Assembly: GCA_022821585.1 (NCBI GenBank)
Contig: JAJEDI010000100.1
Span: forward strand, 1-64,000
Reading direction: 5' to 3'
Source: Caldilineaceae bacterium
Lineage (GTDB): Bacteria; Chloroflexota; Anaerolineae; Caldilineales; Caldilineaceae
Length of the DNA stretch: 64,000 nucleotides
Shown: positions 30,361-51,699 of the stretch, piece by piece
Layout: each line of letters starts with the position of its first letter
How positions within the stretch are numbered: the first letter of the stretch is position 1
The notes under the pieces: generated by a model
What the model saw: only the letters and a program-made list of their open reading frames with translations
Told to the model about the DNA's origin: nothing
Database searches by the model: none
Made by a program: the position numbers and the translations under genes

Positions 30361-30409
30361 CTCCCCCTCCTCACTCCTCTTTCCTCACCCCTCTTTTCTT
30401 ACCCCTCAT
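30361..30409. repeat. Seven-base repeat array at the 3' end of an SBP gene
   Basis: The plus strand reads in 7-base steps: CTCCCCC, TCCTCAC, TCCTCTT, TCCTCAC, CCCTCTT, TTCTTAC, CCCTCAT. The last units overlap the final codons and the TAA stop of the SBP gene (30399). GTGAGGAG (30342-30349) can pair with CTCCTCAC (30367-30374), giving a stem within the transcript. Confidence 0.7.
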
Positions 30410-32523: not shown

Positions 32524-32539
32524 TGACGATTCTTACACC

Positions 32540-32562
32540 GGGTGCATCCCAAAATGGGGGCG
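32540..32562. repeat. Inverted 23-base match to 328-350
   Basis: The plus strand reads GGGTGCATCCCAAAATGG then GGGCG. Its reverse complement matches 328-350 at 19 of 23 positions, including an unbroken GGGATGCACCC. Confidence 0.5.
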
Positions 32563-32640
32563 ACCTCTCCTACTTCTCTGGCAACAACCAAGCCACGGTC
32601 AGTTCACTTTCCAGTTTCCGCCAGAATAAGCGCCTTCACT

Positions 32641-32675
32641 GACTGCTAACTACTGACTACTAACTGCTGCACTTC
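32641..32675. repeat. Seven-base repeat array beside dispersed repeat
   Basis: Units are GACTGCT, AACTACT, GACTACT, AACTGCT, GCACTTC. It lies 11 bases before copy 2 of the dispersed repeat and, unlike the other arrays, is not at a stop codon. Confidence 0.65.
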
Positions 32676-32685
32676 TGGGCGGTCG

Positions 32686-32862
32686 GGCCTATTCGGCCCT
32701 CCCTTGTGCGGGGGCTCCGCCCCCGCAACGCCCCCTCTCCTACAACATGCCGAGTCGACCGGGTGTCGACATTGGTGACGAATGCCCAATCGAAAGTGTC
32801 CAGCCAGACCACGTCCCGCCGGTCCCATCAAATCCCCGTAGGGGCAGGCCTTGTGCCTGCCC
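32686..32862. repeat. Dispersed intergenic repeat, copy 2
   Basis: It aligns with 29-204 across its full length. This copy has a tidier GC palindrome (GCGGGGGCTCCGCCCCCGC) and ends with GGGGCAGGCCTTGTGCCTGC, an internal inverted repeat (GGGCAGGC/GCCTGCCC). No coding potential is shared by the copies. Confidence 0.8.
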
Positions 32863-33241
32863 AGCACCCCCAAAAGCAGCTTAACAATTTCAGCCTACCT
32901 CTGGGGAACTGTACCGGGATCCACAGCCGGATTCTCAGGACCACCCCAAATCCACGATGAACCCTCTTTCGCCCCACCGTCAATCTTTCGCTGGCCGGGA
33001 GACAACAGATTGCCCGCTCCTCAAGGCTCTACGCAGGAATCCGCGCCGCGCTGACCGCCAACCTCCGGGCGAAGGCAGTCTAGCGGCTATGCAGTTTTTT
33101 CGTTGAATTTCCCGCCGTAACGTTGCGAGCGGCGCGCCGCGCCTCGGGCGAGGAGCATGGGGAGGAAGGACTGAAAAGATTGTCAATCTCTGGTCTGGAG
33201 GTACGAATCAAACGACCAGATTCAACAGCAATCACAGAAGT
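32863..33241. other. Intergenic stretch, no gene seen
   Basis: No credible reading frame was found. Past the HlyD stop (33242) the minus strand can form CTGGTC/GACCAG across 33195-33225, without a T-tract, so termination there is uncertain. Confidence 0.4.
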
Positions 33242-34425: not shown

Positions 34426-34453
34426 CAACCAACTGACCACTGACCACTGCAGT
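34426..34453. repeat. Seven-base repeat array at a stop codon (CTGACCA type)
   Basis: Units are CAACCAA, CTGACCA, CTGACCA, CTGCAGT on the plus strand, running into the TAA stop of the oxidoreductase gene at 34453. The same unit type, in the same position relative to a stop, occurs at 37273-37307. Confidence 0.7.
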
Positions 34454-37272: not shown

Positions 37273-37307
37273 CACTGACCACTGACCACGAACCACTGAC
37301 CACTGCA
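37273..37307. repeat. Seven-base repeat array at a stop codon (CACTGAC type)
   Basis: Five units on the plus strand: CACTGAC, CACTGAC, CACGAAC, CACTGAC, CACTGCA. It ends 1 base before the TAA stop of the MalG gene (37309). Confidence 0.8.
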
Positions 37308-41379: not shown

Positions 41380-41465
41380 AGCCCGACCTGAATTCGAGGA
41401 GCGTTACGATTGTAAAGTCCGGGGTGAGAAGCGAAAAGCAAGAGTCGGAGGCACTACGCCCCCAA

Positions 41466-41500
41466 CTCTCACTCCTCACTCCTATTCACTCTCTCCTCGA
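41466..41500. repeat. Seven-base repeat array at the 3' end of SBP gene A
   Basis: Units on the plus strand: CTCTCAC, TCCTCAC, TCCTATT, CACTCTC, TCCTCGA. It ends 2 bases before the TAG stop of the SBP gene at 41503. Confidence 0.65.
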
Positions 41501-41502
41501 AT

Positions 41503-42900
41503 CTAAGGTTCCATTCCCAACTCGCGGACGTCACTGACCCATTCCTCGTACTGTGCTTCGCACCGAGACTGAATCATCGCTACCGCTTCCTCGCTGCCGA
41601 TATTGCCCTGCCGTACTTCCGAGCACCCTTCACCTATGGCCGCGCCAATTTCGCCGATCGAGCCGAAACCCACACCCTCGAAAGTGGTCTGCGGCAGCAG
41701 GTGCTCCTGCAGAACTTTCGTCAGCTTTACCAGCGGACCATCCGGGTCGTTATCCACGAAATGGTCATAACTGCCGACCAGGCCCTTCCATGCAGTGTTC
41801 GGCTGTCCGCCGTAGATCATGGCGTATGACGTCTGTCCTTCATCCGTCACCAGCATGCGCAGGAACTCGATCGCCATATCGGGATTCTTCGCCTGCTTTA
41901 GCGAGATGAATCCCCATCCGCCTTCACCACAGAACATCGGCGCCTCACCTTCATGGATCATCGGTGCGCCTGCCATCCGGTAGGTATAGCCCAGGTCCCA
42001 GGCAATCGGCATTGAAGGCGTGCCGTTGCCGCGCGCCAGCGCCACCTTGCCGGCCAGTGCAGCATCGACGTGGTTCTGGTCCAACTGCGTCTCGATGCCC
42101 AATTCTACCGGTCCCTCAACAAACAGCCTCATCGCCTCCATACCCTCTTCGGTATTGATGTTGAACTGCTTGTTCTCAAGATCCCACCAGTCCATGCCCT
42201 TGGGGTTCAGCAGCGTGCGCAGGATGCCGAGATAGCTCATATCATCCCAGCCCTGGCTGCTCAGGCCCCACTTGGTCACTTTGCCGTCCTCTTCGACCTG
42301 CAAGGCCTTCCCCAGCTCCCACATGCTTTCGTAGCTCTCGAAGTAGACCTCACCGTTCAGCGGCGGATACTGGTCATCTAGCCCCAGCGCAATCACATCC
42401 TCGCTCGGCACATTGACCATGTTGCCCACGCCGTTACACTCGGTCGGCACGCCCCAGATCTCGCCCTGCCACATGTAGGCGCCGATCGCGTCGCCCACAA
42501 AGTCCTCGTCAGGATCGACATCCATGTGGTTGTAGACCTGCTCCGTGCACGGGACCAGGGCCTGGTGCAGGTGTAGGCTCGTCAACTGTTCACCCATAAT
42601 GCAGGCCACGTCAGGCTGCGTTCCCGCCGCCAACGCTGCAATCACCTTGGGCGGGATCGGCCAGGCCTGCGGCTGTACCTCAAACGTCCCCCCGCCCTGC
42701 GACGCGAACAGATCGGAAAGCCGCTGGTACGCCTCAACATGCGGGTCGTACTGCAGGCCCCACATCACACCCTGACGCTGTTCCTTCGGCACGGCTGCAC
42801 CGCCGCCCGCCATCTCCGTACCCGGCGCAACACACGCAGCTAGAAGACCGACTCCCGCCGCCCCCGCCGAGACTTTCAGAAAATCTCTTCGACTGTGCAT
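41503..42900 (-). CDS. Tat-exported lipoprotein sugar-binding protein (tandem copy A)
   Basis: The 465-residue SBP_bac_1 protein starts MHSRRDFLKVSAGAAGVGLL and has AACVAP as lipobox. Its mature part is nearly superimposable on copy B upstream; for example the stretch from PQAWPIPPKVIAALAAGTQP to LVPCTEQVYNHM is identical between them. Differences cluster around residues 280-320 and 360-390, which may alter ligand choice. The two genes are separated by 114 bases. It is followed by the GH36 gene. Confidence 0.93.
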   Translation of the reverse strand: MHSRRDFLKVSAGAAGVGLLAACVAPGTEMAGGGAAVPKEQRQGVMWGLQYDPHVEAYQRLSDLFASQGGGTFEVQPQAWPIPPKVIAALAAGTQPDVACIMGEQLTSLHLHQALVPCTEQVYNHMDVDPDEDFVGDAIGAYMWQGEIWGVPTECNGVGNMVNVPSEDVIALGLDDQYPPLNGEVYFESYESMWELGKALQVEEDGKVTKWGLSSQGWDDMSYLGILRTLLNPKGMDWWDLENKQFNINTEEGMEAMRLFVEGPVELGIETQLDQNHVDAALAGKVALARGNGTPSMPIAWDLGYTYRMAGAPMIHEGEAPMFCGEGGWGFISLKQAKNPDMAIEFLRMLVTDEGQTSYAMIYGGQPNTAWKGLVGSYDHFVDNDPDGPLVKLTKVLQEHLLPQTTFEGVGFGSIGEIGAAIGEGCSEVRQGNIGSEEAVAMIQSRCEAQYEEWVSDVRELGMEP

Positions 42901-42965
42901 CTTTCCCTCCTCTTTTAAGGGTCATTGACCAGATGAGATAGAAACACTCACAGACTGAAGATAAG

Positions 42966-43003
42966 GAGCGGAGAGCAAGAGGTGTTCTCTCTCCTCTCCG
43001 CTC
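42966..43003 (-). promoter_or_regulatory. Intercistronic hairpin between the tandem SBP genes
   Basis: GAGCGGAGAG (42966-42975) pairs with CTCTCCGCTC (42994-43003), a 10-bp stem with an 18-base loop. The right arm is made of 7-base repeat units. Confidence 0.6.
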
Positions 43004-43015
43004 TCTCCTCGCCCC
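42988..43015. repeat. Seven-base repeat array at the 3' end of SBP gene B
   Basis: Units on the plus strand: TCTCTCC, TCTCCGC, TCTCTCC, TCGCCCC, touching the TAG stop of the gene ending at 43015. Confidence 0.65.
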
Positions 43016-44421
43016 TACGGTTCCAGGCCCAATTCGCGCACGTCGCTCACATACTCCTGGTACTGAGCCTCGCAGCGCGTCTGGATCAACTCAACTGCCT
43101 CCTCGCTGCCGATGTTCCCCTGCCGCACTTCGGAAGCGCCTTCCGTAATTGCGGAACCGATTTCGGCAATCGAGCCGAATCCCACGCCCTCGAAAGTCGT
43201 TAGTGGCTGCAGATGCTCCTGCAGGATCCTTGCCATACCCACCTGAGGACCGTCAGGATCCGGGTGGGTGAAGTGATCGTAAACGCCGACCAAATCCTTC
43301 CAGGATGTATGGACTGCGCCGCCGTAGATCTTCGCGTATTCAAGCTGCCCTTCGTGCGTCACCAACATGCGCAGGAACTCGATTGCCATGTCGGGGTTAT
43401 GCGACTGCTTCAGCGAGATGAAGCCCCATCCGCCCTCTCCGGCGAACAGCGGCAGCTCGCCTTCAAAGACCATCGGCGCTCCGCACATTACGTACGTGTA
43501 GCCCAGTTCCCAGGACATCGGTAGCGATGGCGTGCCGTTGCCTCGTGCCAGCGCCACCTTGCCGGCCAGGGCCGCGTCGACATGCGACTGGTCCAGTTGG
43601 GTCTCGATACCCATCTCCACCGGTGTCTCGACGTAGAGACGCATCGCCTCCATGCCCTCTTCCGTATTGATGTTGAACTGCTTATTCTCCAGGTCCCACC
43701 AGTCCATGCCCTTCTTGTCAAGCAGGGTCCGCAGGATGCCGAGATAGCTCATATCGTCCCAGCCCTGGCTGCTCAGCCCCCACTTGGTTACCTTGCCGTC
43801 CTCTTCGACCTGCAACGCCTGCGCCAACTCCCACATGCTGGGATAGCTCTCGAAGAAAACTTCCCCGTTCAGCGGCGGATACTGGTCCTCCAACCCAAGG
43901 GCAATCACATCTTCGCTGGGAACGTTCACCATGTTGCCGACGCCGTTGGCCTCGGTCGGCACGCCCCAGATCTCGCCCTGCCACGTGTAGGCGCCGATCG
44001 CGTCACCCACAAAGGACTCGTCTGGGTCGACACCCATGTGGTTGTAAACCTGCTCCGTGCAGGGGACCAGCGCCTGGTGCAGATGCAAGCTCGTCAGCTG
44101 TTCGCCCATGATACAGGCTACGTCCGGCTGTGTCCCTGCCGCCAGCGCGGCAATCACCTTGGGCGGAATCGGCCAGGCCTGCGGCTGCACTTCGTACGTC
44201 CCGCCGCCCTGTGATTCGAACAAATCAGCAAGACGCTGGTACGCTTCTACGTGCGGGTCATACTGCAATCCCCACAACACGCCCTGCCGCTGATCGCTGG
44301 GTATCGCCGCCTCCCCGCCTGCCGGTGCCATCGGCGCCGCGCACGCAGCCAGCAGGCCAACGCCCGCCGCGCCCGCTGTCGTCCTCAATACTTCTCTGCG
44401 ACTGTACAACTTTCTGGACAT
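43015..44421 (-). CDS. Tat-exported lipoprotein sugar-binding protein (tandem copy B)
   Basis: This 468-residue SBP_bac_1 protein starts MSRKLYSRREVLRTTAGAAG with AACAAP as lipobox, after CAGGAGGGA. It is a close paralogue of copy A. It is the first gene of the 44421-33242 operon, so it should be the most highly expressed copy. Both copies share one MalF/MalG pair and no ATPase. Confidence 0.93.
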   Translation of the reverse strand: MSRKLYSRREVLRTTAGAAGVGLLAACAAPMAPAGGEAAIPSDQRQGVLWGLQYDPHVEAYQRLADLFESQGGGTYEVQPQAWPIPPKVIAALAAGTQPDVACIMGEQLTSLHLHQALVPCTEQVYNHMGVDPDESFVGDAIGAYTWQGEIWGVPTEANGVGNMVNVPSEDVIALGLEDQYPPLNGEVFFESYPSMWELAQALQVEEDGKVTKWGLSSQGWDDMSYLGILRTLLDKKGMDWWDLENKQFNINTEEGMEAMRLYVETPVEMGIETQLDQSHVDAALAGKVALARGNGTPSLPMSWELGYTYVMCGAPMVFEGELPLFAGEGGWGFISLKQSHNPDMAIEFLRMLVTHEGQLEYAKIYGGAVHTSWKDLVGVYDHFTHPDPDGPQVGMARILQEHLQPLTTFEGVGFGSIAEIGSAITEGASEVRQGNIGSEEAVELIQTRCEAQYQEYVSDVRELGLEP

Positions 44422-50537: not shown

Positions 50538-50586
50538 CACGCAACACGCATTACGCAATACGCAATACGCAATACGAACTACGCCT
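50538..50586. repeat. Perfectly phased seven-base repeat array abutting a stop codon
   Basis: Seven consecutive 7-base units on the plus strand: CACGCAA, CACGCAT, TACGCAA, TACGCAA, TACGCAA, TACGAAC, TACGCCT. The next base begins the TAG stop (as CTA) of the oxidoreductase gene. Confidence 0.9.
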
Positions 50587-51660
50587 CTACCCCTTATATG
50601 CCCCAATAATGTCAATGATCAACTTGACGTCCTTGCGTGCATGCTCCAGCGACGTGCGCGACGTCTTGTCGTTGACGATACAGTCGTGAAAGTGACGCAG
50701 TTCCTGTACAAACGCGCTGTCCCAGTCGATGTACGGCTCGGTCCGGTAGGTCCTGCCCTCGCCGTCGATCCCTTGTATCGACACCGTCGATAGGATGCCT
50801 CGCGAAAAACCGGTCGGGTACGCGACAGTGACCCGTTTGTCGTCTCCGTAGATCTCCAGCGTCTCCTTGAAATCCCACAGATCGGGCAGATCGATCCATG
50901 TGCCCACGCAGCGCGCGCCGTTTTCGTAGACCAGCGTGAATGTAACGGCCCGACCCTCCTGCCAGATCTCCGTATGTGACACCTCGACCGGCAGGCCCAT
51001 GATCTCGCGCAAGCCGTACAGGTCGTGGATCATGCTTCCCGCCAGCAGATGGAATGCGCGTTCTACGTGGGGAGGCGCCTCGCCGATCGCCTGCTCTCGG
51101 GCCGCCTGCCTCCCCTCCATCGCGCTCTCGATCGCCCCCTCCGGCAGGTCACCGAAGCTGCGCACGTCGAACTGCTGCAGATGCAACGCATTGTTCGGGT
51201 GCAGATGGTTGATCTGTACAAAGCGCACATCCATATCCGCCGCTTCCAGCTTCGCCCGCTCAAACGCCGGGTCATAGACCTTCATGTAGCCCGCCTGCCC
51301 CACCGTCCCCGCGCGCTTGCGCGCCTCGATCATCTCGTCGCACTCCTGCAGCGAGAAGCACACCGGCTTCTCCACGAAGGCATGCTTGCCCGCGTCAAAG
51401 GCGTCAACCGCCACCCCCTTCTTTGGGTCCGTCTGGCACAGCAGCACCGCCTCCACGTCAGATGCCAGCAGTTCGCGGTAGTCCGTAAAGTATTGGGGCA
51501 CGTGAAAGCGGTTGGCCACATACTGGGCCGCGCCCTCCGATACGTCGCACACTGCAGTCACCTCAAACTCGTCCTGCAACTCATTCAGGTTGGGCATATG
51601 ATGCACCTGGGCGATCGCTCCACATCCGATGACGCCTATTTTCACTCGTCTCACTTGCAT
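50587..51660 (-). CDS. Gfo/Idh/MocA-family NAD(P)-dependent oxidoreductase
   Basis: The 357-residue protein begins with the dinucleotide motif VKIGVIGCGAIAQVHHMPN and has the catalytic-type EKP (FVEKPVCF, about residue 97). A C-terminal alpha/beta domain follows. Its ATG is 51 bases from the cupin stop, and the GGAG ribosome site is supplied by the end of a 7-base repeat array. It is the last gene of the operon starting at 56347. Substrate unknown, probably a sugar or inositol derivative. Confidence 0.9.
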   Translation of the reverse strand: MQVRRVKIGVIGCGAIAQVHHMPNLNELQDEFEVTAVCDVSEGAAQYVANRFHVPQYFTDYRELLASDVEAVLLCQTDPKKGVAVDAFDAGKHAFVEKPVCFSLQECDEMIEARKRAGTVGQAGYMKVYDPAFERAKLEAADMDVRFVQINHLHPNNALHLQQFDVRSFGDLPEGAIESAMEGRQAAREQAIGEAPPHVERAFHLLAGSMIHDLYGLREIMGLPVEVSHTEIWQEGRAVTFTLVYENGARCVGTWIDLPDLWDFKETLEIYGDDKRVTVAYPTGFSRGILSTVSIQGIDGEGRTYRTEPYIDWDSAFVQELRHFHDCIVNDKTSRTSLEHARKDVKLIIDIIGAYKG

Positions 51661-51664
51661 TTCT

Positions 51665-51699
51665 CCGGTCGGTGGTCGGTGGCAGTCGGTGGTTCGGAC
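51665..51699. repeat. Seven-base repeat array between cupin and oxidoreductase genes
   Basis: Units on the plus strand: CCGGTCG, GTGGTCG, GTGGCAG, TCGGTGG, TTCGGAC. It occupies most of the 51-base gap between the two genes, and its end forms the CGGAG ribosome site of the oxidoreductase. Confidence 0.6.

Follow-up and report, generated by a model that had tools for sequence, protein, structure and literature searches.

The seven-base repeat array that adjoins the end of an oxidoreductase gene in a Caldilineaceae bacterium belongs to a genus-wide set of heptanucleotide simple sequences that are intergenic, are oriented by chromosome strand, and vary between orthologous slots. Stop-side heptads have already been described; the new feature is their near-absolute strand polarity along the chromosome.

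We analyzed a stretch of 64,000 nucleotides (the window), which is contig C79 of a 5.49-Mb draft genome, called the own genome in the comparisons below. Its closest relatives are MAGs named Caldilineaceae, and the oxidoreductase of the nearest shares 97% protein identity with the one considered here. The focal array and its gene are as follows.

50538 to 50584, minus strand: focal heptad array, GCGTATT type on the sense strand, 6.6 units, 2 bp behind the stop codon.
50587 to 51660, minus strand: Gfo/Idh/MocA oxidoreductase gene (PF01408, E 7.4e-23), with its TAG at 50587-50589.

A preliminary description had reported seven units in perfect phase that ended exactly at the stop codon. The array is real, being found by TRF at 50539-50584 (7-bp unit x 6.6, 84% matches) with a score of 64, the top score of the whole window, and by a lag-7 scan at 50538-50584, but neither its phase nor its end is so exact. 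Read in the sense of the gene the units drift (GCGTAGT, TCGTATT, GCGTATT, GCGTATT, GCGTAAT, GCGTGTT), and a gap of 2 bp separates them from the TAG. Folding with DNA parameters gave the focal array no structure above its shuffles (z 0.32), and it lacks the stable hairpin and following T-run of an intrinsic terminator. Searched against Rfam at gathering thresholds, the window returned no matches, and a plasmid search gave none either. Behind the same stop in 16 congeners, inspection by eye found clear heptads in eight, doubtful ones in three and none in five (G016, G008, G007, G010 and G004).

Repeats of periods 4 to 21 and 28 were scanned in 450 kb of the own genome and 400 kb of its complete relative G011, with genes from a home-made codon-usage caller whose stops are exact and whose starts are approximate. 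Intergenic DNA of the own genome held 16 arrays of period 7, 14 of period 14 and nine of period 21, with zero to four at other periods; the corresponding counts in G011 were 15, 13 and three, with zero to seven at other periods. No period-7 array occurred in the coding sequence of either sample, and block-shuffled intergenic DNA yielded one (own) and none (G011). Because period 7 and its multiples dominate the intergenic arrays, while coding sequence holds no period-7 array and shuffled DNA one at most, arrays of the focal type are not due to chance. A period-7 test of all intergenic DNA had been proposed; run on these samples, it gave a clear excess. Fifteen congener loci yielded six arrays of period 7 and eight of period 14, with zero to two at other periods. 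The arrays are thus heptameric simple-sequence repeats, in which 7-nt units are joined head to tail in non-coding DNA more often than chance allows.

The period is kept while the unit sequence varies, as the preliminary description had recognized, and this class of arrays is real. The YAGTNNY family makes up 52 of 74 arrays, with CAGGGGT, GAGGAGT and GCGTATT as minorities, and many arrays open with a common prefix, AACTG. For the commonest unit, CAGTRGT, the pattern CACTGACNACTGAC has 181 matches in the own genome and its reversed control has none. The pattern CAGTRGTCAGTRGT is matched in all 17 genomes of the genus (5 to 476 matches each), in one of 20 same-family genomes outside the genus and in three of 24 more distant genomes; a reversed control gave one match across the 17 genomes of the genus. 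The reversed control TGRTGACTGRTGAC has 33 matches in G030 and 13 in G035, which belong to another genus of the same family and in which it perhaps marks another heptad unit or family. Transitions account for at least 100 of the 163 changes counted inside arrays, and position 3 of the heptad (G) varies in 2.4%, against 6-18% at the other positions, a comparison biased by the choice of phase on AGT. Two candidate functions were rejected: a positional code of AGT every 7 nt, since variation depends only slightly on phase and AGT itself was used to pick the phase, and an all-frame stop function, since CAGTGGT and GCGTATT yield no stop codon on the array strand.

Position and polarity were counted in four skewed species (own, G011, G015 and G014), in which 83 arrays were kept after those with one base above 70%, those of nearly pure G+C and those mostly inside called genes had been dropped beforehand. 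The polarity test covered the 74 arrays in segments with a fourfold-site GC skew of size above 0.1, the nine at or below 0.1 being omitted. The G-rich strand of the array was the locally G-rich strand in 73 of these 74 (own 35/36, G011 26/26, G015 10/10, G014 2/2), and the sole exception lies in the window.

51667 to 51682, plus strand: weak two-copy GGTCGGT heptad, its G-rich strand opposing the local skew.

When orientation was scored by the CAGT/TAGT motif instead of by G content, 52 arrays ran with the skew and two against it, and CAGTRGT units inside arrays followed the skew 105:0. Single CAGTRGT heptads outside arrays ran with and against the skew 57:18 in intergenic DNA (57/75) and 115:81 in coding sequence (115/196). 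Composition alone fails to explain the polarity, because background intergenic 30-mers of similar G-C imbalance agree with the skew in 74-81%, as against 105/105 for the CAGTRGT units inside arrays. The orientation of an array is set by the chromosome strand, not by gene direction: between co-directional genes, the array strand was the gene strand in 25 of 47 cases and opposed it in 22. A polarity that follows the skew independently of gene direction suggests replication rather than transcription or translation. In G004, which has almost no skew, period-7 arrays occur in both orientations. Loci L046 and L047 (G000:C11:80001-120000) have a very strong fourfold-site GC skew, of -0.68 and -0.71, with values near 0 in other parts of that genome.

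On the complete G011 chromosome, 47 of the 50 matches of ACTGCAGTGGTCAGT are consistent with two switch points, which were placed after the data were seen and are separated by about half the chromosome. The resulting blocks are plus at 19-66 kb (3/3), minus from 171 kb to 2.68 Mb (22/22) and plus from 2.83 to 5.18 Mb (22/25). Among the 100 matches of CAGTRGTCAGTRGT listed, the same blocks appear, with mixing near the first switch (82 kb minus, 138 kb plus); its other 90 matches, beyond 2.99 Mb, divide into 62 forward and 28 reverse, so that the second arm is less uniform, and in all of these CAGTRGTCAGTRGT counts overlapping matches of one array are counted several times. G015 consists mostly of long one-way blocks, with exceptions present. 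One switch point lies near dnaA both in G011 (dnaA at 5.20 Mb) and in G015 (dnaA at 4.85 Mb). In G011, four DnaA-box-like sites with 1-2 mismatches fall within 62 bp (L256:9171-9232), about 470 bp outside the called dnaA frame on its 5' side; the frame was confirmed as dnaA, and exact DnaA box variants are absent beside it. Under the usual GC-skew rule, the G-rich strand is not the lagging one. Just right of the G011 box cluster the plus strand is G-rich (0.44), and if that cluster is the origin, the G-rich strand would be lagging over most of the chromosome, against the rule. Coding bases on the G-rich strand amount to 52-56% in the own genome, G011 and G014 and to 34% in G015; this weak gene-strand bias and the tRNA directions, judged by eye, do not decide between leading and lagging, and our claim is limited to arm polarity.

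Array abundance also appears to be linked to skew, although the evidence is suggestive. Across 16 congeners (G003, with a locus of 3.2 kb, was left out), the genome-wide pattern count correlated with synonymous skew at an orthologous locus with a rho of 0.81, and independent contrasts on a single-gene tree gave r 0.55 (p 0.03), with signs agreeing in only 8 of 15. G002, G006 and G016 have skew and few arrays. Within genomes, array density rises with the size of the skew in own (rho 0.38) and G011 (rho 0.47), and no such relation was found in G015 or G014.

KOPS and other arm-polarised motifs offer a mode of action to which the arrays can be likened, and a polar DNA signal that is kept by selection and recognized by a chromosome motor, the replisome or a nucleoid protein would account for near-absolute polarity and for the low variation of heptad position 3. 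We consider such a signal unlikely. Pattern matches range from 5 to 476 among congeners, coding sequence is without period-7 arrays, G004 carries its arrays in both orientations, and the unit sequence changes, while the effect at position 3 is biased by the phase chosen on AGT.

A tie to stop codons had been proposed for the arrays, and it is real but one-sided, holding only at the stops of genes whose sense strand is the G-rich strand of the array. The adjacency counts kept 58 of the 83 arrays, leaving out those linked to the core of a dispersed element described below, those without two called neighbours, and G004; the start of an array was taken on its G-rich strand, and expectations assume uniform placement. 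Of 23 arrays that start on the side of a co-oriented gene's stop, 13 began no more than 10 bp from that stop, where 1.8 would be expected, and five of the 23 overlap the end of the gene. At the stops of opposite genes, in contrast, only one of 21 arrays lay within 10 bp (2.6 expected), so that the enrichment near stops, checked in these four species, is confined to co-oriented genes. The starts of opposite genes had 2/35 arrays within 10 bp (2.8 expected) and 7/35 within 30 bp (6.1 expected), and none of 37 arrays ended within 30 bp of a downstream co-oriented start (5.7 expected).

Comparable arrays had been placed at five other gene ends of the window (30361, 34426, 37273, 41466 and 42988), in a list that omitted the array at 32638-32669. 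We find the following.

30368 to 30407, minus strand: GAGGGGT/GAGGAGT array of period 14 and 7, overlapping a gene end, with the gene's TAA inside the array.
32638 to 32669, minus strand: YAGTNNY array of period 14/7 inside the dispersed element, with the nearest called stop 572 bp away.
34432 to 34449, minus strand: CAGTGGT array, 2.6 units, 3 bp behind a stop.
37273 to 37305, minus strand: CAGTGGT array, 4.7 units, 3 bp behind the stop of a BPD_transp_1 gene.
41468 to 41483, minus strand: short GAGTGAG array, 2.3 units, belonging to a hairpin arm.
42989 to 43010, minus strand: GAGAG-rich hairpin arm without a period-7 array (fails the period-7 test; TRF unit 5).

The sites at 30361, 34426 and 37273 thus carry period-7 or period-14 arrays of 2.6 to 4.7 copies, whereas the one at 41466 has only 2.3 copies and the one at 42988 is no period-7 array and folds as a stem. 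Likewise, a fixed position at 3' gene ends describes a subset of the arrays and not others, such as that at 32638-32669. If the arrays were stop-linked terminators or other mRNA 3'-end elements, their 13/23 placement at co-oriented stops would be explained, and with DNA parameters three sites of the window do fold, the GA-rich arrays at 41468 (z -4.2) and 42989 (z -3.6) and the array at 37273, above its shuffles (z -3.2). Array orientation nevertheless follows the skew (73/74) and not the genes, which argues against this as a general explanation, as do the 25/47 agreement with gene strand between co-directional genes, the unstructured focal array (z 0.32, DNA parameters) and the lack of any Rfam match in the window; we regard it as very improbable. 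Both GA-rich arrays follow ABC solute-binding protein genes, and each supplies the 5' arm of a strong hairpin (41430-41505 and 42960-43017); these hairpins are perhaps terminators.

The closest published likeness is the GGGNATC heptads of Xanthomonas and Nostoc, which are intergenic 7-nt tandem arrays (Rehm et al., 2015; PMC4692102). As that paper describes them in the parts drawn on here, most of the arrays found downstream of an ORF are within 50 bp of its stop and on the coding strand, some overlap the stop, and gene context is conserved while array length varies between related species. The Caldilineaceae arrays share the intergenic 7-nt layout, the stop-side position on the coding strand (here 13/23 within 10 bp), the overlaps, and the conserved gene context with varying length. 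They differ in three respects. The GGGNATC repeats also crowd the start side of opposite ORFs (PMC4692102), whereas we see no excess there (7/35 within 30 bp, 6.1 expected); in the same parts of the paper they are G-quadruplex formers, whereas most units here, the focal one included, are free of G-runs, GCGTATT and CAGTRGT containing no run of three G and the CAGGGGT minority having one; and the xanthomonads are described there as without leading/lagging preference, whereas the arrays here are polarised (73/74 with the skew, and 47/50 in G011).

A second comparison is with the TAACTGA direct repeats of Beggiatoaceae, cyanobacteria and Bacteroidetes, which, in the passages of MacGregor (2015; PMC4679880) used here, lie for the most part immediately before start codons in the BOGUAY genome. 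These too are heptads, and TAACTGA reads CAGTTAT on the other strand, which fits YAGTNNY. Tandem TAACTGA itself, however, is absent from 2.45 Mb of five congeners, with two occurrences in 0.69 Mb of Poribacteria loci, and start-side placement is not seen in our arrays (opposite starts within 10 bp 2/35, 2.8 expected; co-oriented downstream starts 0/37). Heptanucleotides were found to be the most abundant long class of simple repeats in most genomes, and slippage set by the contact length of the polymerase was proposed (Mrazek et al., 2007, as cited in PMC4679880 and PMC4692102); the passages of those two papers on these long repeats make no mention of chromosome-arm polarity. Among the papers listed on such repeats in Chloroflexi, Caldilineaceae or Poribacteria, on the replichore orientation of tandem repeats, and on heptamers or STRR, none mentions arm-polarised heptads in its title or the opening of its abstract.

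The array at 32638-32669 lies inside a larger repeat.

32538 to 32873, minus strand (limits approximate): dispersed element, about 330 bp long, that contains GC-rich hairpins and a slot filled by heptads.

The order within the element is GC-rich hairpins, AGAACTG, the heptad slot and a tail. Besides the window copy, the own genome has 32 copies or fragments, G011 15, G015 29 and G014 11, a total of 87 in 2.45 Mb, with copies in L057, L213, L059 and other loci. BOX, REP and MITE elements are modular dispersed intergenic repeats with hairpins and a variable internal repeat. Our element has a comparable layout. Many draft contigs of G001 and G003 start within their first 100 bases with an array or element match, and the heptad repeats and the element probably break assemblies. 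In G011, a 32-nt heptad stretch occurs in three copies 161 bp apart with identical flanks (L080:9559-9920).

That the arrays are parts or remnants of this repeat, the heptads being the variable module of a mobile element that inserts via single-stranded DNA at the fork and so takes one orientation per arm, is a possible alternative. The polarity of the element equals the skew in 70 of 71 copies (segments with skew of size above 0.1), no copy lies mostly inside called genes, and none was found in a sampled 400 kb of the unskewed G004. Its slot is variously filled with CAGTRGT, CAGGGGT or GAGGAGT, and the AACTG prefix is common among arrays. Two species share one 32-mer of heptads, letter for letter, at loci that are unrelated, so array DNA is probably also copied between sites. 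Only 22 of 98 arrays are core-linked, however, most having no element core alongside; inspection by eye of 35 element matches showed none of the GCGTATT type, and no target-site duplication was evident by eye in the seven copies with both ends, the window copy included.

Orthologous slots bear on insertion as well. The preliminary description had suggested comparing relatives for empty sites, and the slots turned out to be neither simply empty nor filled: in G014, G003 and G016, most of those examined hold a differing array or its degenerate remains, which speaks against the mobile repeat. Full units at L057:15979, counted by eye, number 15 in own, five in G014, five in G003 and four in G016. 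The array at 34432 of the window is longer in G003 and G014 and nearly lost in G016; the unit at L057:12743 is CAGTTTT in own and G003 and CAGTGGT in G014; and at L046:14539, G016 has no array and its stop codon is at another place. Twelve of 14 slots gave 25 two-anchored comparisons, and two gave none. Length was equal in six, differed by a multiple of 7 in six and by other amounts in 13. The six multiples of 7 among 19 non-zero differences (2.7 expected, p 0.04) weakly support length change by whole units. The other 13 of the 19 are not multiples of 7 because the flanks change too; that multiples are so few weakens a slippage reading and strengthens the insertion alternative.

Of the explanations first suggested, we find that slippage fits best, that insertion may play a part and that an mRNA 3'-end element is improbable as a general explanation. 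Our preferred reading, to which we give a probability of roughly 0.45, is that strand-specific replication slippage together with dispersal shapes the arrays. One nascent strand would slip by 7 nt during replication of the chromosome, so that arrays lengthen and shorten, and this slippage would be linked to the process that gives these genomes their very strong GC skew. New sites would be seeded by copied array DNA, partly within the dispersed element; slippage alone does not explain the same few units at unrelated loci or the 32-mer shared by two species. Arrays that lie within coding sequence or on the start side of a gene would be removed by selection, so that many survive just behind co-oriented stops, the survivors concentrating where the sense strand of the gene is the G-rich strand; some arrays may extend into the end of the gene and provide it with another stop codon. 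On the slippage reading, the focal array would serve no dedicated purpose for the oxidoreductase gene.

Related arrays occur in the Poribacteria, which are described as sponge inhabitants in the part of the literature used here (PMC3909097). Their loci (n=43) gave 19 period-7 arrays, at least two of which are runs of N, whereas periods other than multiples of 7 gave 1-6. Once N is removed 24 arrays are left, of which 15 contain CAGT; CAGTTAT and CAGTTAC are among the units, and the skew is matched in only 8 of 11. Heptad arrays, TAACTGA-type included, are found at L101, L110, L111, L114, L116, L118, L123, L128 and L131, and some Poribacteria heptad arrays overlap called start codons. A bolder proposal, which we hold to be rather doubtful, treats heptad arrays as a fossil record, in sequence, of the direction of replication. 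In it, 7 nt would be the step of one strand-specific activity at the fork, and in several phyla that activity would have produced a widespread YAGTNNY family, with the TAACTGA repeats of Beggiatoaceae and cyanobacteria among its members. If the proposal is true, array polarity can map chromosome arms and inversions in uncultured genomes.

The dominance of heptamers among long bacterial simple repeats is a question standing since 2007 (cited in PMC4692102 and PMC4679880), and an arm polarity that is independent of gene direction bears on it in another lineage. For the Caldilineaceae themselves, this polarity accounts for the apparent tie to stop codons without a function at the level of the gene, and it makes the arrays a marker of strand history in draft genomes.
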